Shown here piece by piece: positions 5,515 through 36,514 of a stretch of DNA of 42,012 bases. Source of the stretch: an uncultured Archangium sp. (GTDB lineage: Bacteria > Myxococcota > Myxococcia > Myxococcales > Myxococcaceae); contig CAIVGN010000108.1 of NCBI GenBank assembly GCA_903905455.1, positions 1 through 42,012 on the forward strand, given 5' to 3'. The notes below the pieces were generated by a model. It had not been told where the DNA came from and searched no databases. It was given only the letters and a program-made list of their open reading frames with translations. The translations under genes were made by a program, and so were the position numbers. Positions within the stretch are counted from its first letter, which is position 1; every line of letters starts with the position of its first letter.

Positions 5515-8283
5515 TCAGGGCGCGGGGAACCGCAGCGTGATGCGCGTGCCCTGCCCCGGCGCACTGTCTACCGCGAGGTGCCCGTGGTGCGCGGTCACCA
5601 GCGAATAGACGATGGACATGCCCAGGCCCGTGCCCTGCCCGGGGTCCTTGGTGGTGAAGAAGGGCTCGAACAACCGGGCCTGCACCTCGGCGCTCATGCC
5701 CTCTCCCTGGTCGCTGACCACCAACTCCACCTCGGACGCCAGGCGCCGCGCGGTGACGGTCACCACCGAGTCGGCGGGCGAAGCGGCCACGGCGTTGGAC
5801 AGCAGGTTCACCAGCACCTGGATGAGCTCGCCGGCCACGCCCTGCACCGCGAGGCCCTCCTCGAGCTGCGCCTCGATGCGCCGGTGCTTCGTCATGGACA
5901 CCAGGGACACCGCGTCGCGCACCACCGCGTCGAGGAACACCAGCCGCGGCTGGCGCCCACCCTGCTGCTCGCCCCGCGCGAAGGTGACCAGCGCCTTGAC
6001 GATGTCGTCGATGCGCCGGCCCTGCTCCACGATGTCGCCGAGGCGCTCGCGGAGATCGACCGGGTGCTCCTCGGCGGCGAGGTTCTGGGCCACCATCAAC
6101 AGCCCGGCCAGGGGGTTGCCGATTTCATGCGCCACGCCGGCCCCGAGGCGCCCGATGGAGGCGAGGCGCTCCTGGTGGGCCATGGTCCGCTCGAGCGCGC
6201 GCCGGGTGGTGAGGTCTTCGACCACCAGCACCCGCCCGCCCGGCAGCGGCCCCTCGCCGGTGACTTCCGCGCTGGTGACGCTCAGCGTGCGCGCGCCCAC
6301 CACCAGCTCGCCGACGCTCGGGAGTTGACGCAGGGCTTCAGGCTTCGGCGCGCCGGCGAGCGTGGTCCACGCGTCGTTCCACCACACCGCGTCGCCCTGG
6401 GGGCTCACCACGCACACGCCCACCGGCAACGACGCGAAGACGTTCGAGAGCCACGCGCGCAGGGCCTCGGCCGCCGCGCTGCCACCGCGCCGGGCCTCCT
6501 CTTCGAGCAGCTGCAGGCGGGTGGCCAGCGGCACCAGCTGCCCCGGCACTTCGTCGCCCTCGGTGGTCAACGCGGCGTGGCTGAGCACGGGCCCCAGCAG
6601 GCCGGTCAGGTTGGCCTCGAGCCGCTCGGCCACGCGCTGCAGCGCCGCGGCCCCGGTCTCGTCGCGCGAGAGCTGGAGTTCGGTGGTGACACGCTCGACC
6701 TCCACCCGCGCCGCCGCGCGACCCAGCACGCGCGCCACCCGGTCCACGAAGCCCTCGAGCGAGGCCGGCAGCCGCCCCGGGGACAACGAGTCCACCTCGT
6801 CGCGGCACAGCTGCGCGGCGCGCAACTCCACGGCTGACGAGGGAGCCAGCGACGAGCCCACCAGCGCCGCGAGCACGTTGAGCGTGAGGCTGACCAGGGC
6901 GCTGACGCCCAGCGCGTCGTGGCCCGTGAGCCAGCCCGGCAGCGCCACGCCCGACAGCCCGATGACCGGCAACGCGAGCAAGAGGCCCCACGTCACCAGG
7001 CCGGCGACCAGGCCCGCGAGCACCCCGGCGCTGCTCAGGCGCGGCAGGAACAGGACCCCCACCAGCCCGGGCACCAGCTGCAGCACCGCGGCGAACGACA
7101 CGAGGCCCACCTGGGCCAGCGCCCCGCCCCGGGCCTGCGCCCCGCCCGTGTGGTCCAGCGCGAGGAACACCACGAAGGTCGCCAGCAGCAACAACCCCAC
7201 CACCACCCGGCGCTGGCGCACCAACGTGCCGTACACGTCGGGGTCGTCCGCGCGCCGCCACGGCAACACGAGGTGGGTGAGGCTCATCGACGACAGGGCC
7301 AGCGAGGCGACGATGACCATGGCGCTGGAGGCCGACACGCCGCCCAGCCACACCACCGGCGCCAGCCACGGCACCTTCTCGGCGACCAGCAGCACGTAGA
7401 GGTCTCCGTCGGCCTGCGGCGCGAGGGCCTCACCCGCCCACAGCACGAGGGGGATGGGCAGGTTCATCACCAGCAGCAGCAGCGGGAAGGCCCAGGTCGC
7501 GCGGCGCAGCGCGCGCTCCCCCCGCTCTCCCTCGGGAGCCTCGGTGAAGGCCATGTGGAATTGGCGCGGCAGCAGGAACGTCGCGCCCACCGAGAGCAGC
7601 AGCACCGAGGTGAAGCCGCCGGTGCGCGCGGGCTCGAGGAAGGCCTCCACGCGGGCGGGCGTGGGGGTGACGTCGAGCTGAAAGGCCACCACGCCCACGG
7701 CGAGCAGCGCGAGGGTCTTGAAGGCCGACTCGAAGGCGATGGCCATCACCAGCCCGGGGTGCCGCTCGCGGGTGGTGGCGTGGCGCGCCCCGAAGAGCGT
7801 GGCGAACACCAGCATCACCGCGCAGAACGAGAAGCCGACGACGTGCGGGTCGAGGCCGGGCACCAGGGCCACCGCGGTGGTAGCCACGGCGCGCACCTGC
7901 ACCGCGAGGTAGGGCAACACGCCCAGCAACATGGCGACGGTGACCGCCACGCCCAGCGCCTGGCTCCGGTAGCGGAAGGCGAAGAGGTCGGCGGTCGTGG
8001 CCAGCTGGTGTCGCCGCACCAGGCGCAGCAGCGGCAGGAAGACGGCGGGGATGAGCAGGCACGCCAGCGTCGGCCCCAGCGAGACGGCGATGAAGCTCAC
8101 CCCTTGCGTGCGCGCGAAGCCCACCGCGCCGAAGAAGGTCCAGCTCGAGGCGTAGACGCCCAGGGACATCGCGTAGACGAGGGGGTGCTCCGAGAGGCGC
8201 TGCCACGAGGGCCGCGAGTCGGCCAGCCGCGCCAGGGCGAAGAGCAGCGAGAGCCAACCCAGGGTGAAGGCGAGGAGCAGCAT
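5515..8283 (-). CDS. SLC5-type transporter/sensor histidine kinase fusion (CbrA-like)
   Basis: The 922-residue product joins a sodium/solute symporter-like domain to a histidine kinase. About 13 membrane helices fill residues 1-480, including the SSS-type stretch ASSWTFFGAVGFARTQG near the N-terminus. A linker of about 90 residues (where CbrA carries its STAC domain) and a PAS-like segment (about 600-690) follow. The kinase core has the phospho-acceptor H719 in GVAHEIGNPL, an N-box NLLSNAV, and G-boxes DQGEGM and GTGLGMS. In Pseudomonas, CbrA has this build and controls carbon/nitrogen balance. ATG 8283 is chosen because it overlaps the stop of the upstream small gene by one base (TGATG); an upstream open extension to 8433 would only overlap that gene. 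No response regulator gene is adjacent, so the phospho-relay partner is unknown. Confidence 0.92.
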   Translation of the reverse strand: MLLLAFTLGWLSLLFALARLADSRPSWQRLSEHPLVYAMSLGVYASSWTFFGAVGFARTQGVSFIAVSLGPTLACLLIPAVFLPLLRLVRRHQLATTADLFAFRYRSQALGVAVTVAMLLGVLPYLAVQVRAVATTAVALVPGLDPHVVGFSFCAVMLVFATLFGARHATTRERHPGLVMAIAFESAFKTLALLAVGVVAFQLDVTPTPARVEAFLEPARTGGFTSVLLLSVGATFLLPRQFHMAFTEAPEGERGERALRRATWAFPLLLLVMNLPIPLVLWAGEALAPQADGDLYVLLVAEKVPWLAPVVWLGGVSASSAMVIVASLALSSMSLTHLVLPWRRADDPDVYGTLVRQRRVVVGLLLLATFVVFLALDHTGGAQARGGALAQVGLVSFAAVLQLVPGLVGVLFLPRLSSAGVLAGLVAGLVTWGLLLALPVIGLSGVALPGWLTGHDALGVSALVSLTLNVLAALVGSSLAPSSAVELRAAQLCRDEVDSLSPGRLPASLEGFVDRVARVLGRAAARVEVERVTTELQLSRDETGAAALQRVAERLEANLTGLLGPVLSHAALTTEGDEVPGQLVPLATRLQLLEEEARRGGSAAAEALRAWLSNVFASLPVGVCVVSPQGDAVWWNDAWTTLAGAPKPEALRQLPSVGELVVGARTLSVTSAEVTGEGPLPGGRVLVVEDLTTRRALERTMAHQERLASIGRLGAGVAHEIGNPLAGLLMVAQNLAAEEHPVDLRERLGDIVEQGRRIDDIVKALVTFARGEQQGGRQPRLVFLDAVVRDAVSLVSMTKHRRIEAQLEEGLAVQGVAGELIQVLVNLLSNAVAASPADSVVTVTARRLASEVELVVSDQGEGMSAEVQARLFEPFFTTKDPGQGTGLGMSIVYSLVTAHHGHLAVDSAPGQGTRITLRFPAP

Positions 8284-22574: not shown

Positions 22575-25500
22575 TCACTCGAGGTCGAACACGTCGAAGC
22601 GCCCGTCGGTGCCGAGGTACGCGCGCGTGCCGGCGATGGTCACGCCCGCGTGCTGCGTGCAGGACGGCGACGACACGGTGTGCGCCGTCGGAGCCTGGCC
22701 CATCAGGAAGGGCTCGTCAGGCGTGCCCACGTCGAACGACAGGACGACGTCCTCGAGGCCGCGTTGGCCGATCATCACCACCGTGGTGCCCGCGACGTCG
22801 AGCGCGATGGGCCGCAACACCGAGATGAGCGGGCTGACCAGCATGTCGGCCCACGCCACCTTCGTCGTCACGTTGCCGTCAGCCGCCGCGGCCGCGTTGA
22901 AGGTGTACAGGCCGTTGCCCGACACGGCGTTGAGGTCCTGGGCGGCGAGGTAGAGCGTGCCGTTGCTCAGCTTCCCGTCGAACGATTGGAAGACGGTGCC
23001 CACCGGCGGCACCAACCGCCCGACGAGCTGGTTCGCGCCCATGGTCGTGGCCGGCGCGTCGTCGATCAGGGGGTTGATGTCCACCAGCCAGGCCGTCGGC
23101 TCGGGGTTGGCAGTGCCCGTGGCCCGCGTGACCACCGCGATGCCGTTGGTCACCCGCACCCGCAGCGTGGTGCTGGCCTGCGCGCTGGTGGTGGTGTCGA
23201 ACTGGAACTCCCCGAGCTTGTCGGCCGCGGTGAGGGTGCGGGGCGTGTTGGTCGCCTGCGAGCGCAGCCCGCTGAGCCGGTACACCTCGAGCCACAGCGA
23301 GGTGGGCACGGTGTTCCGCACCGCCGCCACCACCGCGTAGTTGCCCACGCGGTCGATGCTCGTGGGGCGCTCGGCGACGGGCGGCGTGAAGCTCGCGCTG
23401 GCCGCGGTCACCGTGCTGGGCGTCGAGACGCGGTTGAACGAGTCTTCCAGCCGGGTGATGCGGAAGTCGGCGGTGCGCACGGCTACCAGCGTGTCGTCGA
23501 CCACGATGCCGTCGAAGGAGCACGCCTCGGTGTTGCTCGCAGGCGTCATGCGCCGCGTGGGCAGCGGCCCGCTCATGAAGTCGAACACCTGGCCCGACGC
23601 GCCCACCACGAAGCCCGGCCCGACCCGCGGCGTGCCCATGGGGTACTGGACCGAGTAGCGCTGGTGCAGCGAGGTCGCGCTCGACATTTCCCAGGCGTGC
23701 AGCGACGCCGACTGCCCGCCCGACGCGTCGGAGCCGGTGAAGGCGTAGTTGCCGACCACCGCCAGCGCGGTGCCCGAACCCAGCCTGGTGCCGCGCACGT
23801 CGGAGGTGAGCCGCGGCGCGCTGGGCGTACTCAGGTCGCCGGCGCCGAAGTGCGAGGTCGGGGCGGTCGAACTGAAGAAGTACTGCTCGGCCACCAGTTG
23901 CCCCTGGCCGACGGCCGCGAAGGTCGTGCGGCTGATCTCCTGGAAGTAGACCCCCGTCCTGGCCCACAGGCTGGGCAGCGAGACCACCGAGGCCAGCCCA
24001 TTGTTCGAGACCAGGCAGATGTCGCCACTGGTGATGGGCTGGTACCGCGCGGGCGTCGAGGTCACGCCGAGGTAGAAGCGGTCGGCGACCGAGAGGTTGG
24101 TGACGGCGCTGGCGTCCAACGCGTTGGTCAGGTCGAAGGCCGCCGTGATGCTCGAGGACAGCGTGCTGGCGAGGCGATCGCGGGACCACAACAACTGGGC
24201 GGGAGTCGCGACCGCGCTCTGCACCGCGGCCTTCAACGCCGTGGGGAACGACGGGGCCCCCGCGACGTTGTCGTAGAGCGCCGAGACGTCGAAGTGCAGC
24301 ACCACGTCGGTCGCGCCGGTGAAGCCCACGGCGAACAGGTTGTTGCCCCGCACCTCGAGGCCCGTGAGGTTGACGGTGAAGGCGAGGTTCGGCGCGCGGC
24401 AGTCGAGATCCGAGATCAGCACCGGCGAGCCCGTGGCCACCGAGAAGATGCGCACGTGGCTGCCCGACGCCGTGTAGAGCCACGGGTACTCGAGCTTCAT
24501 GCTCGCCGAATAGGGCAGCGTGTTGCCGTCGCTGATGACCAGCGGCTGTCGCGCGACCGGCTGGTAGCCCACACCGTAGGCATTCCCGGTCGTGCCCGGC
24601 GCGACCTTCGTCTCCCAGGACCCGAGCACGAGGTGGCCCTGGGACGAAGCCCCCGCCGCCCACACCACGTCCCCGCTGGTCTCCAGCGCCGACGCGGCGA
24701 CCAGCACCTGGCCGCCACCATCGGGGTTGCCCGCGTCAGGAAAGAGGGGCATCGACCCGATCAAGTCCGCGGGAACCTCGTTGGGTTCGAGGAGCACCTC
24801 GGCGAGCCCACCATCGTTGGGCGGGGTGCCCAGGAGCCCACCTTCGTCGACGGGGACCACGGTGACGTAGGTGGTCGCGCCTTGCGGCAAGCCCGAGAGC
24901 GTGATCGAGCTGCCGGTGACGAAGAGGGGCGAGGGACCCTGTGCCGCGTAGCCGCCGAGGTAGCTGGTGGCCGGGAACACAGGGTCGCCCGTCGCCGCCG
25001 CGTAGTAGACCTTGTAGCCCACCACGTCGGGGCTGGGCGACGCGGTCCAGCCGAACGCCGCGTGCGTGGTGCCGTTGGTGACCCACGACTGGCGCAGGCC
25101 GACGGGCTTCGGGCGCTGGTAGTCGAGTGTCATCACCACGCGGCCCGGGTCGCTCACGTTGCCGGCCTTGTCGCTCTCGGTGATGAGGTACTCGTTCGCG
25201 TCGCCCGCCTCGCTGCCGAAGTTGCGGCCGAAGACCGGCAGCGGGAGCGCGCTCTCGCCGTACTTGATGACCGCGGCCTGGGGGGTGACCGCCAGGCGCA
25301 CCACGTGGTCACCGCCGACGTAGGCCCAGGCCTGGTGCTGCGCGTCGACCACGTTGGCGACGTGCAAGGTGAAGCCGGCCATCGACAGCTGCGTGCCGGG
25401 GTCGAAGGTCTGGCTGGGCGTGAGCACCCGCGGCGTCGCCGGCGCCACCCGGTCCAGGAGCACCACCTGCGAGGTCACGGCCGAGGGGTTGCCCGCGAGA

Positions 25501-28500
25501 TCACGCGCCAGGCCGCACACGGTATACGCGCCGTCGGCGCCCAGCAGCAGCACGGTGTACGCCGCCTGCACGCCCGCGGGGCTCACCCCGGGCAGCGCCG
25601 CGGTGCACGTCGCGAGGTCGACGCCCTGGGCGAGCTGCACGGTGATGGCGCCGGGCGCGGCCACCGTCACCGAGGCCGCCTCGTTGTTGATGAAGCCGCT
25701 CACCCCGCCGGTGGGGCGCACGGTCAGGGTCGGCGTCACGGGCGCGACCAGGTCGACGTCGATGGTGTCGCTGGTGTCGCTCACGTTGCCCACCGCGTCG
25801 CGGAAGCGCGCGTAGAGGGTCAGCGGTACGCCGTCAGTGACGGGCACGCCCGGCAGGTTGCGGACCGCCCCGGTGAAGGCCACGAAGTTGGTCGGCGCGG
25901 TGCTGGTGCCCACGGCCCAGTCGCTGGCCCCCAGCGCGAGGCCGGTGAGCGACGCCGTGGCCTGGCCGGTGGTGACCTGCGCGAGGTTGATGAAGGCCGC
26001 GCCCGCGTTGATGCGCAGCGCTGCGCCCGTGGGGGGCGTGGTGTCGAGGGTGATGGAGCCGGCGGTGACGCTGGCCACGTTGCGCGCGGCGTCGCGCACG
26101 CACGCCTGGAAGGTGTGGAGCCCATCGGCGCCCAGCTGCAGCCCGGCCAGCGTCGAGAGCGTGGCCCACGAAAGCGTGGTCGAGGTGCACGTCAGCGCGC
26201 TCGCCGTCTCCACCAGCGCGACCTCGCGCGGCGTCTCGATGCAGCCCGCGAGGCTCGCGGCGACGGCGCGGGTGGCCGTCGAGCCGGCCGGCGGCACCAC
26301 GCCGTTGAGGCCCACGCCCGGCAGCACCAGCGCGCAGCCCGTCGGCGCCTGGGTGTCGACGACCAGCGAGGCGGGCGTCAGCGCCGCCACGTTGCCCGCG
26401 GCGTCGCGCAGGCACACGTTCACCGTGGCCGTGCCCGCGCCGGTGCCGAGGTTGAAGGCGTTGAGCGAGGCGCTGCCGGGGGCCACGAACGAGCCCGCCG
26501 CGACGGCGGCGCAACTGGCGATGGCGCTCGTCGAGGCGAACACCCCCGTCGCGCCGTCCTGCACCACCTGCAGGCGCACCACCGGGTCCGAGACCACCGA
26601 GCCCGCGACGTCGGAGCTGACCGGCGAGCCGTCGGCGGCGCGCCCGATGAGCGCGAAGCTCCCGCTGGGCCCGAGGCGGTCGAGCGTGAAGGTGGTGGTG
26701 GGGCTCGAGGCCACGTTGCCGGCCGCGTCCTTGAACGAGACGCGCGCGGTGTGCAGCCCGTCGACGGAAGGCAGCGTGAAGGCCACGGGGCCGGTGACGG
26801 TGGTGCTGCTCGTGGGCGGGGTGGGCAGCAGCGGCGCCCCGTCGATCTCCAGCTGCACCGCCTCGGTGGGCGAGAGCTCGCGGTCGTCACGCACCGTCGC
26901 GGTGTACGTGCCGGCGAGCGCGTTGGTGGTGGTGGGGCTGGCGAGGGTGACCAGCACCAGCGACGGCGAGAGCGGCGCGGGCGCCTGGCGGTCGAGGGTG
27001 ATGGTGGCCGTCTGCGGCGCCGACTGGTTGCCCGCCGAGTCGATGAAGCTGAACCACACCGTCTTGAGCCCGTCGGCGGCCTGGTCGAGGAAGCCGGTCA
27101 TCGCCGCGCTCACCGGCTGCGGCGTCGCCGTGGCCAGCTCGGTCATCGAGTTGCCGAGGCGCACGCGCACCGGGCCCCCGTTGGCCTCCGCCACCGCCGC
27201 GACCTGCAGCGTGACGGTGGCCTGCGTGGTGTAGCCCACCTTCGTCGCCAGCGGCCCCTGCTGCACCGAGAGCGTGCCGCTGGGCAGGACGGTGTCGACG
27301 ACCGCCGTGGCCGAGGTGGCGACGCTGACGTTGCCCGCGTTGTCGATGAGCTGGGCGTAGAGCGTGACCGGGCCCTGGGCGCTGCTGCCGCGGGTGAAGA
27401 GCGCGTCGCGCTGGTACGGGAGCTGCCCGGCGGTGACCTGGCCCGCGGTCAGCGCGAGGCCCAGGCGCATGAAGGCGAGGCCCGACGAGGTGCCCGCGGC
27501 GCCGGGGTCGAGGCCGTTGAGGGTGAAGGGCAGCGGGTCGGTCTGGGCGATGTAGCCCGTGCCGTCACCGATGCGCAGCGAGAGGCCGCTGGGCGGCGCG
27601 GTGTCCACCACGATGGACGCCGAGACGACCGGGCCGATGGCCCCGGTGCCGTCCTTGAGCTGGAGGTAGATGGTCTTCTCGCCGTCGCCGCCCGAGAGCG
27701 GGAAGGCGATGCCGGTGCCCCCGTCGGCGCCGAACGTGGTGAAGGGGAGATTGGCGACGGAGGGGTCGCTCTCGGCCGCGCGGTAGTCCGCGACGCCGGT
27801 CACGTCATTGAGCACCAGCAGCACGGCGTGCAGGTGCGTGAAGCCCGGCGCGCTGGTGCTGTCTGCGTCGTCGATGCCGAAGGCACCCGCGACGCGCGTC
27901 AGCCGCGGCAGGGCCGGCAGGTCGGTCTGCCGGTTGGCGGTGATGGAGAACGTGCCCGAGTTGACGGTGCGGTAGCCGGTGCGCTCGGCCCGCAGCGAGT
28001 AGGTGCCCACGGGCACGCCGGTGATGAGGAAGGTGCCGCGCGCGGGGCTGCTGGGCAGGGCGGCGACGGGCGCGGAATAGGGCGTACCGTCGATGAACAC
28101 GGCGACGTCGCGCAGGGGGCTGCCGTCACCCATCTCCACGAAGCCCTGGACGCCGCCGCGGTCGAGGAAGAGCGGCACCTCGGCCAGGGCGGTGTCGGCG
28201 CCCGGCTGCACCTGCACCGTGAGCGCGTCGAAGAGGGCGTGGTGGTTGGCCAACACCACCCGCAGCACGCGGGCACCGCCCGGCAGCCCGCCCAGCGTGA
28301 AGGTGCCGTCGGCGGCGGTGGTGGTCGACGAGCCCGAATCGGAGCTGATGATCACGTTGGCCGCGTCGACGGGCGCGCCGCTGCCTTCGACTTCCCGGAC
28401 CACCTTGCCCACCACGCGGCCGGGGTTGAGCTGCAGCACCAGCGCGTCGTCGGCCAGCGGGACCTGGGCCTTCGAGGCGACCACCACGTCGGCCTTGCTC

Positions 28501-29054
28501 GCGGTCACGAAGTTCGGGTGCGTGACGCGCAGGGTGAAGGTGCCGGGGGGCACCTGCAGGGCGAAGAGCCCGGAGGCACCCACCGCGGCCGTGGCCAGCA
28601 GCTTCATCTCCGGCTGGAGCAGCGCTTCGATGGTGGCGCCCTGCACCTCGCCGGGGCCCGAGGCGACGTGCACCGTGCCCGTCACCGTGCCCGCGCTCTC
28701 GTCGATGGTCTCGGCGAAGAGGGGAATGGTCCCCAGCTCCCGCAGCTGGCCGCTGGCGATGGTGAAGGTGCGGTCGAGGGGGATGAAGCCGTCGCGGCGC
28801 CCGGCCAACTCCCACAGGCCCGGCCGCAGACCGTCGAGGTGGAACGCGCCGTCAGCGCCGGTGGTGACGTCGCGGCCCGGGCCCGTCTCGGGCGTCAGGG
28901 TCAGCGCGAGGCCGGCCACGGGTGCGTCGTCTCGCGTGGCCACGACGCCTTGCACCGAGCCCACCTGGGGGGCGGGTACGACGAGGTCACGGCAACCCGC
29001 CAGCATCAACACCAGCGCGGCGGCACCACGGATCAGCCAGGAGCGGGAAGACAT
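22575..29054 (-). CDS. Giant multi-domain surface lipoprotein (2159 residues)
   Basis: The leader ends in the lipobox LMLAGC (C21). Four carboxypeptidase-regulatory-like beta modules follow at about 32-90, 122-188, 211-275 and 300-365, each with the ADGTFTLGGLPGG or GTFLITGVPVGTYSL-type signature. About nine bacterial Ig-like modules of about 90 residues fill about 490-1320. Each opens with a DTAPPSG, DRQAPAP, DRLGPSG or DTTPPTG-type start and contains an AGNVS or DAAGNVA strand. A fibronectin type III module lies at about 1321-1425 (SPDVVGYKVYYA). The last 720 residues look like a propeller of LVIVD-type blades. It is anchored in a membrane and probably extends from the cell surface as an adhesion or recognition protein. 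The opposite strand is also open over this gene, which is a base-composition effect. Confidence 0.9.
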   Translation of the reverse strand: MSSRSWLIRGAAALVLMLAGCRDLVVPAPQVGSVQGVVATRDDAPVAGLALTLTPETGPGRDVTTGADGAFHLDGLRPGLWELAGRRDGFIPLDRTFTIASGQLRELGTIPLFAETIDESAGTVTGTVHVASGPGEVQGATIEALLQPEMKLLATAAVGASGLFALQVPPGTFTLRVTHPNFVTASKADVVVASKAQVPLADDALVLQLNPGRVVGKVVREVEGSGAPVDAANVIISSDSGSSTTTAADGTFTLGGLPGGARVLRVVLANHHALFDALTVQVQPGADTALAEVPLFLDRGGVQGFVEMGDGSPLRDVAVFIDGTPYSAPVAALPSSPARGTFLITGVPVGTYSLRAERTGYRTVNSGTFSITANRQTDLPALPRLTRVAGAFGIDDADSTSAPGFTHLHAVLLVLNDVTGVADYRAAESDPSVANLPFTTFGADGGTGIAFPLSGGDGEKTIYLQLKDGTGAIGPVVSASIVVDTAPPSGLSLRIGDGTGYIAQTDPLPFTLNGLDPGAAGTSSGLAFMRLGLALTAGQVTAGQLPYQRDALFTRGSSAQGPVTLYAQLIDNAGNVSVATSATAVVDTVLPSGTLSVQQGPLATKVGYTTQATVTLQVAAVAEANGGPVRVRLGNSMTELATATPQPVSAAMTGFLDQAADGLKTVWFSFIDSAGNQSAPQTATITLDRQAPAPLSPSLVLVTLASPTTTNALAGTYTATVRDDRELSPTEAVQLEIDGAPLLPTPPTSSTTVTGPVAFTLPSVDGLHTARVSFKDAAGNVASSPTTTFTLDRLGPSGSFALIGRAADGSPVSSDVAGSVVSDPVVRLQVVQDGATGVFASTSAIASCAAVAAGSFVAPGSASLNAFNLGTGAGTATVNVCLRDAAGNVAALTPASLVVDTQAPTGCALVLPGVGLNGVVPPAGSTATRAVAASLAGCIETPREVALVETASALTCTSTTLSWATLSTLAGLQLGADGLHTFQACVRDAARNVASVTAGSITLDTTPPTGAALRINAGAAFINLAQVTTGQATASLTGLALGASDWAVGTSTAPTNFVAFTGAVRNLPGVPVTDGVPLTLYARFRDAVGNVSDTSDTIDVDLVAPVTPTLTVRPTGGVSGFINNEAASVTVAAPGAITVQLAQGVDLATCTAALPGVSPAGVQAAYTVLLLGADGAYTVCGLARDLAGNPSAVTSQVVLLDRVAPATPRVLTPSQTFDPGTQLSMAGFTLHVANVVDAQHQAWAYVGGDHVVRLAVTPQAAVIKYGESALPLPVFGRNFGSEAGDANEYLITESDKAGNVSDPGRVVMTLDYQRPKPVGLRQSWVTNGTTHAAFGWTASPSPDVVGYKVYYAAATGDPVFPATSYLGGYAAQGPSPLFVTGSSITLSGLPQGATTYVTVVPVDEGGLLGTPPNDGGLAEVLLEPNEVPADLIGSMPLFPDAGNPDGGGQVLVAASALETSGDVVWAAGASSQGHLVLGSWETKVAPGTTGNAYGVGYQPVARQPLVISDGNTLPYSASMKLEYPWLYTASGSHVRIFSVATGSPVLISDLDCRAPNLAFTVNLTGLEVRGNNLFAVGFTGATDVVLHFDVSALYDNVAGAPSFPTALKAAVQSAVATPAQLLWSRDRLASTLSSSITAAFDLTNALDASAVTNLSVADRFYLGVTSTPARYQPITSGDICLVSNNGLASVVSLPSLWARTGVYFQEISRTTFAAVGQGQLVAEQYFFSSTAPTSHFGAGDLSTPSAPRLTSDVRGTRLGSGTALAVVGNYAFTGSDASGGQSASLHAWEMSSATSLHQRYSVQYPMGTPRVGPGFVVGASGQVFDFMSGPLPTRRMTPASNTEACSFDGIVVDDTLVAVRTADFRITRLEDSFNRVSTPSTVTAASASFTPPVAERPTSIDRVGNYAVVAAVRNTVPTSLWLEVYRLSGLRSQATNTPRTLTAADKLGEFQFDTTTSAQASTTLRVRVTNGIAVVTRATGTANPEPTAWLVDINPLIDDAPATTMGANQLVGRLVPPVGTVFQSFDGKLSNGTLYLAAQDLNAVSGNGLYTFNAAAAADGNVTTKVAWADMLVSPLISVLRPIALDVAGTTVVMIGQRGLEDVVLSFDVGTPDEPFLMGQAPTAHTVSSPSCTQHAGVTIAGTRAYLGTDGRFDVFDLE

Positions 29055-29150: not shown

Positions 29151-30476
29151 TCACAGCCGGGCCGAAAAGGGAACCAGGTCGAGCTTCGCCTGCAGCGCGC
29201 GCCCCATGCTGTACACGCCGCCCAGCTTGCGGTGCAGGAACAACAACTGCGCCGGCGGCGGGGAACAGGTCAGCGCCCGGTAGTACGCCTTGAGCCGCTC
29301 GCCGGCCTCGTCCACGAAGCGCTTGTCCTGGAAGTTCACCGGCTGGAACGCGGGCTGGAACACGCGCAGCACCGTCTCCAGCAGCCCGTGCAACGCCTCG
29401 CGGCTCGCGGCCGGTTCCGCCGGGTCGATGAGGCTCAGCTCCTGCGCGGCGTGGAGCGCCCCCGGGCGGTCTCCCCTGATGGTGCTCGTCAAGAGGGCCC
29501 GGTACTGCTCGCGAAACGCGGCCGGGTATTCGCGCGTGGCCCCGAAGTCGAGCAGCACCAGCTCGCCCGTCTCGGGGCGGAAGAGGAAGTTCGCGAAGTT
29601 CGCGTCGGTCTGCACCAACCCCCAGTCGAAGAACTCGCGGAAGTAGAGGTCGAGCACCTGGCTGGCCACCTGGTTGCGCGCCGCCTGGTCGGGCCCCGTG
29701 GCGAGGTACGCATCGAGCGTCAGGCCCGCCTCGTAGGAGAGCGCCAGCACCCGCTTCGTGGACATCCCGCGGAACACCTCGGGCACGCGCAGCCCCGGCA
29801 CCCGGTGCGCCAGGGCGCGGTAACGCTCGAGCGCGTCGGCCTCGTGCAGGTAGTCGGTCTCGCGGGTGAGCACGTCGCGCAGCTCGTCGAACACCGCGGT
29901 GACGTCGAAGTGCTTGAGCTGCACGGTGAGGAACAGCCGGGCGATGCGCTCGAGCAGCGAGAGGTCGCTGTCGATGGTCTGGGCGATGCCGCGAAACTGC
30001 ACCTTGAGCGCCAGCTCGTGCACCCCGCCGTCGGGCGAGCGCCACGTGGCCCGGTGCACCTGGCCGATGCTCGCGCTGGCCAGCGGCACCTTCGAGATCT
30101 CCAGCTGCGCGAACCGCTCGTCGCCCAGCTCGTCGCGCAGGATGTCTTCGATTTCGGCGAAGTCGACGGTGGCGCCCGAGGCCTGCAGCTGGCTGAGCAC
30201 CGCGATGACCTCCGGCGGGAGCACGTCGCGCAGCTCCATGCTCAACAGCTGCCCGGCCTTCATCGCCGCGCCCTTGAGCTGGCCCAGGCTCTCGACGATG
30301 GCCCGCGCCTGCTCGACCTGCACCCGCAGCTGCTGGGCCTGGTGCACCAGCGCTTCGCCGCGATCCACCGCGCGCGTCACCCGGCCCTGGAGCTCCTGCT
30401 TCGCGAGGCCCGCGGCCAGCTGCACCAGGCGCGACGAGCGGCTCCACACCGAGCGCGGAGGGGCGTTCTTGCTCAT
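29151..30476 (-). CDS. UbiB/AarF (ABC1) family atypical kinase
   Basis: The 441-residue product has the family's diagnostic elements: KAGQ (K73-Q76) in LKGAAMKAGQLLSM, the Ala-rich nucleotide loop ASASIGQVHRA in place of a Gly-rich loop, the lysine K158 in LALKVQ, a catalytic-loop equivalent TDANFANFLF with D291 and N296, and LDFGA with D310. These proteins bind ATP and support ubiquinone and other lipid metabolism; many have weak ATPase rather than protein-kinase activity. The usual catalytic-loop sequence HADPHPGN is changed to TDANFANF. ATG 30476 overlaps the stop of the MpaB-like gene by four bases (ATGA), giving coupled translation. The longer frame to 31058 only overlaps that gene. Confidence 0.93.
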   Translation of the reverse strand: MSKNAPPRSVWSRSSRLVQLAAGLAKQELQGRVTRAVDRGEALVHQAQQLRVQVEQARAIVESLGQLKGAAMKAGQLLSMELRDVLPPEVIAVLSQLQASGATVDFAEIEDILRDELGDERFAQLEISKVPLASASIGQVHRATWRSPDGGVHELALKVQFRGIAQTIDSDLSLLERIARLFLTVQLKHFDVTAVFDELRDVLTRETDYLHEADALERYRALAHRVPGLRVPEVFRGMSTKRVLALSYEAGLTLDAYLATGPDQAARNQVASQVLDLYFREFFDWGLVQTDANFANFLFRPETGELVLLDFGATREYPAAFREQYRALLTSTIRGDRPGALHAAQELSLIDPAEPAASREALHGLLETVLRVFQPAFQPVNFQDKRFVDEAGERLKAYYRALTCSPPPAQLLFLHRKLGGVYSMGRALQAKLDLVPFSARL

Positions 30477-31591
30477 GACAGCGGCCTCACGGGGAGCTCG
30501 AAGGGCACTTCTGATTTTCCAAAGGTGAGCTCCACGGTGCGCCGCCAATACTGGGCGCCGAGGCGCAGGGCCTGTTCGCGCGCGCCCGGCACGTGGCGCA
30601 GCGCCCGGTCCACCGGGCCCACCAGGTGGCGCAGCAGCTTCGGGGCGAGCTCCCAGGGCCCCCGCGGCAGCTCGAGCGCGTCGGCGTAGCGCGGGCCGAT
30701 GAGGTGCCGGCACAGGGCGTAGCCGAAGTCGATGGCCGCCGGGGGCGCGCCGCGCTCCGCGCCGTCGAGGATCAACGCATGGGTCAGCTTGCGCGAGTCG
30801 AGATCCGGCTCGCCCTGCGTGGCCTCGTAGAGCGCCCACAGCGCGCGGGCCTCCGACGCGGAGGTGCACAGCAGCTCGTCCTCGACGCCCATCAACCGGC
30901 CCGCGTAGCGCCACTGGTGCAGGGTGGCGTCTTCTTCGGCCCCGGTGACGGTGGCGCCCAGCTGCCGCAGCCCTTCGATCAACACCGACGAGAAGAGCAG
31001 CGTGGTGCCGGCCAGGTCGTACTGGTTGATGGGCGCGCCCCAGTCGGCCGCGCGCCACGCGGGCGACTGGCGCAGCGCGTGCCGCACCCGCGCGTGAATG
31101 AGCCGCACCCGCACCGTGGCCACGAAGCCCGGGGCCCCCAGCCGCAGGCCGCCGGGGTGGCTGACCGCCTCCACGAAGCGCGACGTCTCGGCGAGGCGCT
31201 TGTTGACGTCACCGGTGAGGCGCCCCGAGAAGGCCAGCGGCTTGTTCCCGGCCGGCGAGCAGTAGCCGATGACCAGCGACTTGAAGCCCAGCACCAGGCC
31301 CGAGAGGAGCCCCGAGCGCAGCAGCACCTCGCCGCCGGCGTTCGCGCGCGCCTCGTCGAACCACAGCGGCACCTCGCGCAACGACTCGTGCAGCGTGGCC
31401 AGGGGCGCGGGCAGGGCCCCGGGGGTGGTCGAGACCAGCCGGGAGATGAGGGCCTCCTGCTCGGCGCGCGGCAGCGGCACCAGCGCGTGCATCACCGCGT
31501 CGGCGAGGGGGTCTTCGCGCTCGAGGAACCGGGCGAGGCGTTGATGCCGGGGGCTTTCAGGGGACGACGACAGGAACCGCGACGGAGGCAT
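30473..31591 (-). CDS. MpaB/rubber-oxygenase (DUF2236) family protein
   Basis: The 372-residue product resembles the oxygenase family that includes fungal MpaB and the latex-clearing protein Lcp, haem b enzymes that cleave double bonds of polyisoprenoids. The supporting segments are GFKSLVIGYCSPAGNKPL, RLAETSRFVEAVSHPGG, VRVRLIHARVRHAL (with the conserved basic run near residues 163-175) and INQYDLAGTTLLFSS. These follow the family order. It lacks a signal peptide, unlike secreted Lcp, so a cytoplasmic or membrane-associated substrate is likely. It starts 25 bases after the small DUF2780-like gene and overlaps the UbiB-like start by four bases. The pairing suggests an isoprenoid or quinone-tail substrate; that is an inference. 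Confidence 0.82.
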   Translation of the reverse strand: MPPSRFLSSSPESPRHQRLARFLEREDPLADAVMHALVPLPRAEQEALISRLVSTTPGALPAPLATLHESLREVPLWFDEARANAGGEVLLRSGLLSGLVLGFKSLVIGYCSPAGNKPLAFSGRLTGDVNKRLAETSRFVEAVSHPGGLRLGAPGFVATVRVRLIHARVRHALRQSPAWRAADWGAPINQYDLAGTTLLFSSVLIEGLRQLGATVTGAEEDATLHQWRYAGRLMGVEDELLCTSASEARALWALYEATQGEPDLDSRKLTHALILDGAERGAPPAAIDFGYALCRHLIGPRYADALELPRGPWELAPKLLRHLVGPVDRALRHVPGAREQALRLGAQYWRRTVELTFGKSEVPFELPVRPLS

Positions 31592-33870: not shown

Positions 33871-34275
33871 TCAGAGGTTGGAGCCCTGCAGCAGCACCGC
33901 GCCGATGGCGAAGCAGGCGTACGGCACCATGCCCGCGGCGGCCGCGTAGTCCTTCGCGAGGCGCTGCCCGAAGAAGAGGGCCACCACGTTGAGCCCCGCG
34001 AGCGCCGCGCCCACGAAGGCCAGGCCCGCGTTCCTCGTGAGGAACACCGTCACGCAGCCCGCCGCCGACGCCACGCCGGCGAAGACCTCGAGCACGGTGA
34101 TGTTGAAGAGCAGGAAGGTGCTGAAGCGCCGCAGCGGCGTCTTGGCGAAGTACCCGCCGAGGTATTCCCTGTTCCCCTTCCAATCGAGCACCTTGTCGAG
34201 GCCCGACTGCAGGAAAAGGATGGCGAGGAAGGCGGCGGCCAGCGTCTGCGCGACCCACAGCGAAAGGGAGCTCAT
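33871..34275 (-). CDS. DoxX-like membrane protein
   Basis: The 134-residue product has four membrane helices (about 7-27, 50-72, 79-100 and 110-130). The first helix carries FLAILFLQSGLDKVLDW, the pattern at the start of DoxX/SURF4-like proteins, with the short loop NREYLGGYFAKTPL following. DoxX proteins occur in redox and thiol-stress modules and in clusters with DUF692 enzymes. ATG 34275 is used; the longer frame to 34383 runs back into the divergent gene. The DUF692 gene is divergent with 44 bases between the starts, so the two promoters must overlap. Confidence 0.83.
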   Translation of the reverse strand: MSSLSLWVAQTLAAAFLAILFLQSGLDKVLDWKGNREYLGGYFAKTPLRRFSTFLLFNITVLEVFAGVASAAGCVTVFLTRNAGLAFVGAALAGLNVVALFFGQRLAKDYAAAAGMVPYACFAIGAVLLQGSNL

Positions 34276-34319: not shown

Positions 34320-35753
34320 GTGAAGACGCTCCCGTACCTCGGCCTCGGCTTGTCGACCAACGCGCAGCTGCAGGACCAGCCACACCCCTACGCGCTGCTC
34401 GACGCCACCCCCGGGCTCTTCGACTACGTCGAGTACAGCGCGCCCCTCGACGTGGCCCAGGCCCGGCTCGAGGCCTCGCTGTGGCCCCAGATGGAAGCGC
34501 GCCGCACGCAGGTGCCGCTCGTCTACCACCCGGTGCACCTGAACCTCTTCGGGGCCGAACTGGAGTCGCAAGAGCGCCTCGCCCTGGCCGCCACCCACGT
34601 CACGGCCATGGGCAGCCCGTGGGTGTCCAACGACGTCGGCTGGTGGCACCACGCCGGCACCGCCCTGCCCGGCTACCTGTACCTCACGCCCCCGCTCACC
34701 TCCGAGGGCCTGGCGCTGGCGGTACGGCACGTGAAGCACGTGCGGGACGCGATGCCCGTGCCGGTGCTCATCGAGAACCCGGTGGTGATGACCCGCCGCG
34801 GCACCATGCACGTCCTGGAGTTCATGAGCCGCCTGCACGAGGCCACCGGCTGCCCGCTGCTGCTCGACGTGGGACACCTCGTGGCGCACCAGCTGACGTA
34901 CGGGCTGCCGCTCGACGCCGGGCTCCTGGGCGTGCCCTGGGGCCAGGTGGCGCAGCTCCACGTCGCCGGCGGGGTCATCAGCCAGGGGGGCGTGTACGCC
35001 GATGATCACCCCCAGCCCATTCGCGACGAGGCCTGGGCGCTGTTCGGCGAACTGGTGAAGCGCGCGGGCTCGCTGCGGGCGGTGACCTACGAGGCGGACG
35101 GGCACCCCGACCCGGTGGCGCGGCGGAACCTGGTCCGGCTGCGGCGTGACGTGCCGGCGACCCGGGACACGGGCTTCGAGGTGCACGCCCCGGCCGTCGC
35201 CACCGCCGAGGTCGAGGGCGCGGCCTGCTGGAAGTTGTTCGCAGAGGTGCACGCCACGCCCGGCCCTGAGCGGGACTTCCGCCTCGCGGTGCTGGCCGAG
35301 CGGCTCGACGCCGAGGTGCCGCTGGCCCGCGCCGCGGTGGCGCCGACCCTCGCGCAGCTCGCGCCGTTCATGGCGGGCCCCGCGTTCCTCGAGTGGTTCC
35401 AGCGGGGCACCCGGCCGCTGGGGGATTCCTTCCTGAACTGGGCCCTCGGGGAGTGCCGCCGCCCGGAGCTGGCCGGCGCCGACGCCCTGGTCGCGCTCGA
35501 GGTCTGGGCCCGCACCACCTGGGGACGCGCGCGGAAGCCCGGCGTGGCCCATCTCGACACCGTGTTCCCCGCCGACCTCACCGAGGCGGTGCACGCGGCC
35601 TATGCGCTCAAGCGCCACGTGCGCGGGCGCGAGCTGGGCGAGGCCTCGGCGTGGGAAGGGCTGCTGCAGTGCGCCCGGCGGGCGGAGAAGGGCCCGTGGG
35701 CCGTGCGCTTGAGTGAAGAGGGCCCGCGGGTGGTGGTGTCACCGCGGATCTAA
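34320..35753 (+). CDS. DUF692 family (MNIO) metalloenzyme with C-terminal extension
   Basis: The product of 477 residues belongs to the multinuclear non-haem iron oxidative enzymes (MbnB, BufB and relatives), which use two or three irons to modify cysteine or other residues in partner peptides. The TIM-barrel part (about 1-290) has candidate metal ligands in the expected order: YHPVHLNLFG (H70, H73), SNDVGWWHHAG, LIENP (E152), LLDVGHL (D183, H186), QLHVAG (H214), ADDHPQPI (D228/D229, H230) and YEADG (E258). The last 190 residues are helical and are not part of the enzyme core; they could be the peptide-binding partner domain, normally a separate protein. GTG 34320 has GAGG 9 bases upstream. 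No precursor peptide gene is visible beside it. Confidence 0.88.
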   Translation: MKTLPYLGLGLSTNAQLQDQPHPYALLDATPGLFDYVEYSAPLDVAQARLEASLWPQMEARRTQVPLVYHPVHLNLFGAELESQERLALAATHVTAMGSPWVSNDVGWWHHAGTALPGYLYLTPPLTSEGLALAVRHVKHVRDAMPVPVLIENPVVMTRRGTMHVLEFMSRLHEATGCPLLLDVGHLVAHQLTYGLPLDAGLLGVPWGQVAQLHVAGGVISQGGVYADDHPQPIRDEAWALFGELVKRAGSLRAVTYEADGHPDPVARRNLVRLRRDVPATRDTGFEVHAPAVATAEVEGAACWKLFAEVHATPGPERDFRLAVLAERLDAEVPLARAAVAPTLAQLAPFMAGPAFLEWFQRGTRPLGDSFLNWALGECRRPELAGADALVALEVWARTTWGRARKPGVAHLDTVFPADLTEAVHAAYALKRHVRGRELGEASAWEGLLQCARRAEKGPWAVRLSEEGPRVVVSPRI

Positions 35754-35873: not shown

Positions 35874-36104
35874 ATGGAGTCCATGTCCATCAAGCTGCCA
35901 CGCGCGCTGAGCGCCAAGGTCTCCCGCCTGGCGAAGCGACGCAACGTGAGCCGCACCGAGATCGTCAGAGACGCCCTCGAGTCCTATACCGCGGAGGAGG
36001 GCTCGTCAGCGGGCAGCGCGGTCAGCGATCTCAAGGGCTGCCTCGAGGGGCTGCCTCGAGACCTTTCCACCAACCCTCGGCACCTCAAGGGCTACGGGGA
36101 GTGA
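35874..36104 (+). CDS. Ribbon-helix-helix antitoxin
   Basis: The 76-residue product starts at ATG 35874 with AAGGA 6 bases upstream. Residues about 4-9 (MSIKLP) form the DNA-binding strand, followed by helix A (SAKVSRLAKRRNV) and SRTEIVRDALESY as helix B, the CopG/Arc-type fold. The tail from about residue 48 (AVSDLKGCLEGLPRDLS and on) is the toxin-binding part. The stop overlaps the toxin GTG by four bases (GTGA). It would neutralise the PIN toxin and repress the operon. Confidence 0.88.
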   Translation: MESMSIKLPRALSAKVSRLAKRRNVSRTEIVRDALESYTAEEGSSAGSAVSDLKGCLEGLPRDLSTNPRHLKGYGE

Positions 36105-36514
36105 CCCGCATCACGTTGCTGGACACGGGTCCGCTCGTCGCGTTCCTGTCGGCAGGAGACCAGCATCACCGCTGGGCCGCGGAGTCCTTCGACGCGTTGA
36201 CCGGGCGGTTGATCAGCTGCGAGGCGGTGGTCAGCGAGGCGAGCTTCTTCGTGGCCCGCGGCGGACATCGACGGTCGGTGGTCCTCGAACTCGTCGAACG
36301 CATGGGCATCGAGGTCCAGCCACTCGGCGCGGAACTGCGGACGCTGCGTCAGTTGATGGACAAGTACGCCTCGGTGCCGATGTCCTTCGCCGACGCCTGC
36401 CTCGTGCGGCTGTCCGAAGTTCACCCGAGCAGCGTGGTCATGACCTGCGATGCCGACTTCCGCACGTACCGCCGGAGCAACCGCAGGGTCATCAATACCC
36501 TGATGCCGCCCTGA
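36101..36514 (+). CDS. PIN-domain toxin (VapC-like ribonuclease)
   Basis: The 137-residue product has the PIN acidic site: D8 in LLDTGPLVAFL, E46 in VVSEASF, D98 in SFADACLV, and D117/D119 in TCDADFRTYRR. VapC-like toxins cleave specific RNAs with Mg or Mn. Length and motif order are normal, so the toxin looks intact. The GTG start overlaps the antitoxin stop (GTGA). Two bases behind its stop lies a 47-base copy of the inside of the upstream DUF692 gene, which hints that the pair arrived by a recombination event. Confidence 0.9.
   Translation: MTRITLLDTGPLVAFLSAGDQHHRWAAESFDALTGRLISCEAVVSEASFFVARGGHRRSVVLELVERMGIEVQPLGAELRTLRQLMDKYASVPMSFADACLVRLSEVHPSSVVMTCDADFRTYRRSNRRVINTLMPP

Follow-up and report, generated by a model that had tools for sequence, protein, structure and literature searches.

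The gene at 34320..35753 of the window, the whole stretch of 42,012 nucleotides analysed here, probably encodes a single-chain MNIO holoenzyme, that is, an iron-dependent peptide or protein oxidase with a fused partner (PME) domain. Its most likely reaction is hydroxylation of a residue other than Cys in a substrate whose gene lies elsewhere in the genome. The MNIO family and its separate partners are already known; what would be new is a natural one-chain MNIO-partner enzyme with an Asp/His metal site. In a literature search that covered a minority of subscription papers, neither a natural MNIO-partner fusion nor the MNIO clade of the window was found described.

The ORF starts with GTG, no in-frame start being present further upstream, and its third-position GC of 0.96 marks it as coding. 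In comparisons with three congeners, dN/dS was 0.25–0.33 for the barrel and 0.27–0.46 for the extension, values that indicate purifying selection on both halves of the fusion. In Pfam, PF05114 matches residues 56–262 with 111.1 bits (cut-off 25), and the approximately 190 residues behind the MNIO domain match no Pfam family, even at E 10. The gene and its parts are:

34320..35753, + strand: MNIO fusion gene with the putative partner domain, 477 aa
34320..35168, + strand: MNIO (DUF692, PF05114) TIM-barrel domain, residues 1–283 (PF05114 at 111 bits, TglH fold match)
35169..35219, + strand: linker, residues 284–300, among the lowest-confidence stretches of the model
35220..35531, + strand: helical subdomain of the extension, residues 301–404, DUF2063-like by fold (model and structure search)
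35550..35750, + strand: strand-helix-helix-hairpin end of the extension, residues 411–477; the last two RRE-like helices of other genera are missing

The whole protein was modelled in AlphaFold2 with 31 orthologues as input (mean pLDDT 90, pTM 0.88). Structure comparison of residues 1–283 with TglH (8hi7_B) gave Z 26.6 and rmsd 2.9 over 270 aligned residues, followed by MbnB (Z 24.4) and 3bww (Z 22.4). The next structural families after the MNIOs are epimerases (Z about 17) and endonuclease IV (Z about 15). The model indicates a xylose-isomerase-like barrel of the TglH/MbnB type. An MNIO enzyme with a 190-residue C-terminal extension, as stated in the original prediction, is borne out by the ORF, the PF05114 match and the TglH fold of the first 283 residues.

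Since a structure search with the whole protein was filled by barrel matches, the extension was folded and searched separately. The copy used for this was that of a full-length Archangium orthologue (252 aa, pLDDT 87); the window copy was folded only inside the whole protein, and the partner fold is assigned to it via homology. Among 350,542 PDB chains, TglI (8hci_A) was the sole Foldseek match of the orthologue extension with E < 0.001 (4.8e-4), and the second rank was occupied by TglI again (8hi7_A). In VIA-align, the same extension obtained Z 9.6 and 9.4 with TglI and 7.4 with NGO1945, the next match being 6.2 over 55 residues, so that the top matches are the MNIO partners TglI and NGO1945. 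The models point to a fold-level relation, with a high rmsd of about 7, which presumably comes from comparing two subdomains together. PME proteins have a helical domain and then an RRE-like strand/helix part (PMC12452194), and the domain order of the extension is the same. In the full-length orthologue, the extension presents the PME-type 2 partner fold, a DUF2063-like helical domain plus a full or partial RRE, without the DUF2063 sequence signature. The window protein resembles the TglH-TglI pair (peptidyl 2-mercaptoglycine synthase, 8hi7/8hci) both in the barrel and in the two-part partner fold, but TglH-TglI consists of two chains and the window protein of one.

The partner domain was detected by fold comparison only, as sequence-only searches gave no significant match: hhalign of the extension against DUF2063 partner proteins was insignificant, and a PDB profile search with the extension was empty. 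This dissimilarity to DUF2063, together with the existence of one DUF2063 protein in the window's genome, would fit an extension with a role in dimerisation or regulation and no relation to MNIO partners, the partner, for example that DUF2063 protein, being supplied in trans. We consider such an arrangement quite improbable, since the best-ranked structure matches are all MNIO partners, the one DUF2063 protein encoded in the genome is already part of the EGKCG-type operon of contig 43, and in some fusion-carrying genomes, such as G042, no protein matches DUF2063. A built-in PME-type partner, shortened in the window's genus through loss of the last RRE-like helices, is most likely what the modelled extension represents.

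The RRE-like strands and helices are present in most orthologues. In the window's genus, the protein ends after the beta hairpin, and the last two helices and the final strand are missing. The end point is the same in three congeners, so the loss is not an assembly frameshift. The RRE-like end is also reduced in some other genera. With this end missing, leader-peptide binding may be weakened or absent in the window's genus, a loss that mildly favours a substrate without a classical leader.

A pair of relatives links the extension to separate partner genes. At locus L149, in another family of the Myxococcota, an MNIO of the Asp/His ligand type (see below) stands unfused and is overlapped by the next gene. 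This next gene is homologous to the tail of L152, an Asp/His-type MNIO with a fusion (E 1e-12). Because of this homology and of the fold matches, the extension is most likely of the partner type; the suggestion in the original prediction that the fused domain may replace the partner protein is probably right. L152 (genome G050, contig 379) is a second, distantly related Asp/His-type MNIO with a partner-like tail, found in a congener. In the tree it groups with L149 (100/99), apart from the window's clade and on long branches, which indicates that the fusion arose at least twice. L145 and L148, from another Myxococcota lineage, present an Asp/His-type MNIO and then an overlapping or abutting separate partner-like gene, behind which lies a small gene that is DUF493/YbeD-like by eye; no precursor was seen at these two loci.

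A third, independent fusion is found in two genomes of the same genus, G052 (L093) and G051 (L098), where a canonical MNIO is fused in frame to a DUF2063/RRE partner in proteins of about 540–570 aa. It adjoins a Cys-containing precursor with a signal peptide and a sigma-factor-like gene. These proteins are the natural counterpart of the engineered HvfB-HvfC fusion, which has the domain order of the window protein and is highly active (PMC13419390). Other natural MNIO fusions are MovX, whose extra part is a winged-helix/RRE domain only (PMC12452194, PMC13419390), and PflD, an MNIO-nitroreductase fusion (PMC13060819); a complete partner is described for neither of them.

The iron ligands of TglH are His71, His107, Glu151, Asp184, His216 and Glu258, with Asn187, Asp229 and His231 for the third iron (PMC10880893). 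The equivalent positions in the window protein, by alignment with TglH, are:

34527..34529, + strand: His70, equivalent to TglH His71
34632..34634, + strand: Asp105, which replaces the canonical His (TglH His107) and corresponds to PbsC Asp133 (PMC10880893, PMC12257519)
34773..34775, + strand: Glu152, equivalent to TglH Glu151, the Fe1/Fe2 bridge
34866..34868, + strand: Asp183, equivalent to TglH Asp184
34875..34877, + strand: His186, which replaces the canonical Asn (TglH Asn187) and corresponds to PbsC His216 (PMC10880893, PMC12257519)
34959..34961, + strand: His214, equivalent to TglH His216
35001..35009, + strand: Asp228-x-His230, equivalent to TglH Asp229 and His231
35091..35093, + strand: Glu258, equivalent to TglH Glu258

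On the ligands, the original prediction needs one correction: seven of the nine canonical ligands are kept in the alignment, and two are replaced (His107 by Asp105 and Asn187 by His186). The canonical set is H-H-E-D-N-H-D-H-E, and that of the window protein is H-D-E-D-H-H-D-H-E, invariant in its clade. As a longer signature, HHDEDHHDHE occurs in 59 clade rows (some loci overlap), against HSHEDNHDHE in 24 canonical rows, and the second MNIO of the window's genome, of the EGKCG type, carries the canonical signature. By eye, the two swapped positions are Asp and His in the relatives L144–L149 and L152 too, and in the tree the Asp/His proteins are separate from the canonical MNIOs with support of 100/100. 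In addition, TglH Asn73, which is needed for the Cys chemistry of TglH, aligns with Val72 of the window protein.

Published modelling gives the same two deviations for PbsC, which hydroxylates Phe and Tyr and whose ligands in an AlphaFold 3 model are H97, D133, E178, D213, H216, H247, D260, H262 and E290 (PMC12257519). The ligands of the window protein match this set in the same order and with near-identical spacing, in a comparison made by residue order and spacing from the published list, without sequence alignment. As the active PbsC is modelled with the same deviation, the exact canonical set is no strict requirement of an MNIO. PbsC-PbsD belongs to a biphenomycin-like pathway, as a Phe/Tyr ortho-hydroxylase, and differs from the window locus by a separate partner, precursors with the FRF motif, an arginase and a B12 radical SAM enzyme (PMC12257519). 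None of these was seen at the window locus, and the window protein is not filed as a PbsC orthologue because the PbsC cluster genes are absent among the Pfam-scanned neighbours.

In MbnB, the thiolate of the substrate binds the iron that has two His ligands (PMC13419390); Asp takes the place of one of these His in the window protein. This replacement and the PbsC-like ligand set make Cys chemistry, including that of the bufferin type, unlikely for the window enzyme. By analogy with PbsC, hydroxylation of a non-Cys residue would be the best guess.

An MNIO-fold protein that has lost peptide oxidation and hydrolyses or isomerises its substrate at a zinc or manganese site, as in endonuclease IV or the sugar epimerases, is an unlikely alternative. 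It is suggested by the third-site His after Asp-x-x, which is also the arrangement of endonuclease IV, and by the position of endonuclease IV and the epimerases as next structural neighbours of the barrel. However, the Z of 26.6 with TglH stands against 15–17 for these families, a partner-like domain is fused to the barrel, and PbsC, an MNIO of demonstrated activity, has these ligands in its model (PMC12257519).

The close neighbours are those that the original prediction had named, a divergent DoxX protein and a toxin-antitoxin pair:

33871..34275, − strand: gene for a divergent DoxX-like membrane protein (134 aa), placed head-to-head with that of the MNIO
35874..36104, + strand: ribbon-helix-helix antitoxin, beside the MNIO gene in the window only
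36101..36514, + strand: PIN-domain toxin, beside the MNIO gene in the window only

Four genomes of the window's genus carry the MNIO gene, and three of them have DoxX head-to-head with it; DoxX is absent beside the gene in the other sampled genera and in L053. DoxX was dropped as an essential partner, its adjacency being limited to the window's genus, and the toxin-antitoxin pair was dropped as part of the system, as it is not conserved beside the MNIO gene elsewhere. Beyond DoxX lies a histidine kinase/response regulator hybrid. Also on the − strand of the window are an uninterrupted 2159-aa ORF (22575–29054) with a lipoprotein-like signal at its start, probably a giant repeat surface protein, and a gene (30473–31591) for a protein with an MPAB/latex-clearing-type oxygenase domain (PF09995, 86 bits), downstream of which an ORF resembles an ABC1/UbiB kinase by eye.

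The DoxX neighbour had led the original prediction to a bufferin-type module, and a bufferin/oxazolin-type Cys oxidase with DoxX as part of the system would agree with the head-to-head arrangement in three genomes of the genus and with the NCBIfam bufferin maturase (BufB, NF050167) as best-scoring named model. We regard it as very improbable. The NF050167 score of 94.6 bits is far below the cut-off of 310, DoxX does not accompany the gene in other genera or in L053, and neither a Cys-rich precursor nor a separate DUF2063 gene lies beside the MNIO gene. BufB/HvfB share with the window protein the MNIO family and, sometimes, an adjacent DoxX, but they have the canonical His/Asn ligands, a Cys-rich Sec-exported precursor and Cys to thiooxazole chemistry. 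Membership in the bufferin maturases was rejected on the NF050167 score, the differing ligands, and the missing DUF2282 and precursor.

The window's genome has no DUF2282 protein. A precursor of the EGKCG type lies on contig 43, with its own MNIO and partner. There, a complete EGKCG/oxazolin-type operon (L052:4288-6113) comprises the precursor, the canonical MNIO and the DUF2063 partner, and the precursor (5844-6113) presents a signal peptide and SCSGEKGCSG repeats. Beside the fusion gene, no conserved short ORF was found in 20 loci, the only frames being on the opposite strand near the downstream genes of crown genera. The absence of a visible precursor holds both here and in the relatives, and the survey of homologues showed DoxX limited to the window's genus. 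In most genera, a uridine kinase gene is downstream of the MNIO gene.

In at least five genera, the MNIO gene is the last of, or just behind, an exporter operon encoding a TolC-like protein, a MacA-like adaptor, a MacB ATPase and two permeases, and it nearly touches or overlaps this operon in four. The exporter-linked loci, with MacB-type genes upstream, are L062, L080, L083, L059 and L151; in crown genera the two are separated. The closest exporter relative upstream on the same strand is about 16 kb away in Myxococcus and about 42 kb in Corallococcus, and in the window's genome the exporter is on another contig than the MNIO fusion. The MNIO-exporter linkage occurs on older branches, and given the separation in Myxococcus and Corallococcus it looks ancestral and later broken.

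The extended MNIO is present in 75 of the 96 Myxococcaceae genomes searched and in a single genome of a different family. It is always fused, with one copy in each genome, and it is absent from 11 of the 26 sampled Myxococcaceae genera. Named loci come from Myxococcus, Corallococcus, Archangium, Pyxidicoccus, Citreicoccus and Hyalangium. A search of 189 Myxococcota genomes gave no extension that stands alone. A worldwide contig scan with clade motifs, whose clade-specific patterns would miss distant relatives, returned Myxococcaceae-like loci only. L071, a record titled Comamonas sp. KCTC 72670 (BNCN01000004.1), carries myxobacterial sequence and is probably a mislabelled record.

An alternative reading of these data is an MNIO without a precursor whose target is a full-size protein, perhaps a client of the MacAB-TolC-like exporter, with an extension that recognises this protein and not a leader. 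The lack of a conserved short ORF in the 20 loci, the single copy in most Myxococcaceae genomes, which speaks for lineage inheritance and not for a mobile cluster, the position at the end of the TolC/MacA/MacB/MacB operon in at least five genera, and the RRE-like end lost in the window's genus and reduced in some others are all in favour of it. On the other hand, the exporter is unlinked in Myxococcus, Corallococcus and the window's genome, so the link may be historical, and no candidate protein substrate was identified. We consider this reading possible but somewhat unlikely.

For the preferred single-chain holoenzyme, the fold, the fusion, the ligand swap across the clade within a set that is still complete, the single-copy conservation and the missing neighbouring precursor are observations, from which we infer docking mode, iron binding, chemistry and a substrate in trans. 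The extension would dock beside the barrel mouth, as TglI does on TglH and MbnC on MbnB, completing or closing the active-site cavity and helping to present the substrate. Two or three irons would bind in the Asp/His-variant site, and O2 would be activated to hydroxylate a non-Cys residue. The substrate, a leader-bearing peptide or a whole protein, would come in trans. No TglA-like scaffold peptide, which TglH-TglI has, was seen for the window enzyme.

To our knowledge, only a few of the known MNIOs work without a separate partner, and the study of MNIOs suffers from weak binding between enzyme and partner; a natural one-chain MNIO would be a convenient model for the activation of the cluster by the partner. 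By the Asp/His set the examined MNIOs fall into two groups, and the set may tell Cys from non-Cys chemistry. Most Myxococcaceae probably possess a self-contained modifying enzyme with the partner as its own tail, and the conservation of such a precursor-free MNIO raises the question of whether ordinary proteins are modified by MNIOs. It is a doubtful proposal that the target of hydroxylation by this lineage-wide enzyme with its built-in partner is a full-size protein of the Myxococcaceae, cellular or exported. If it is true, MNIOs would be not only natural-product enzymes but also general protein-modifying oxygenases.
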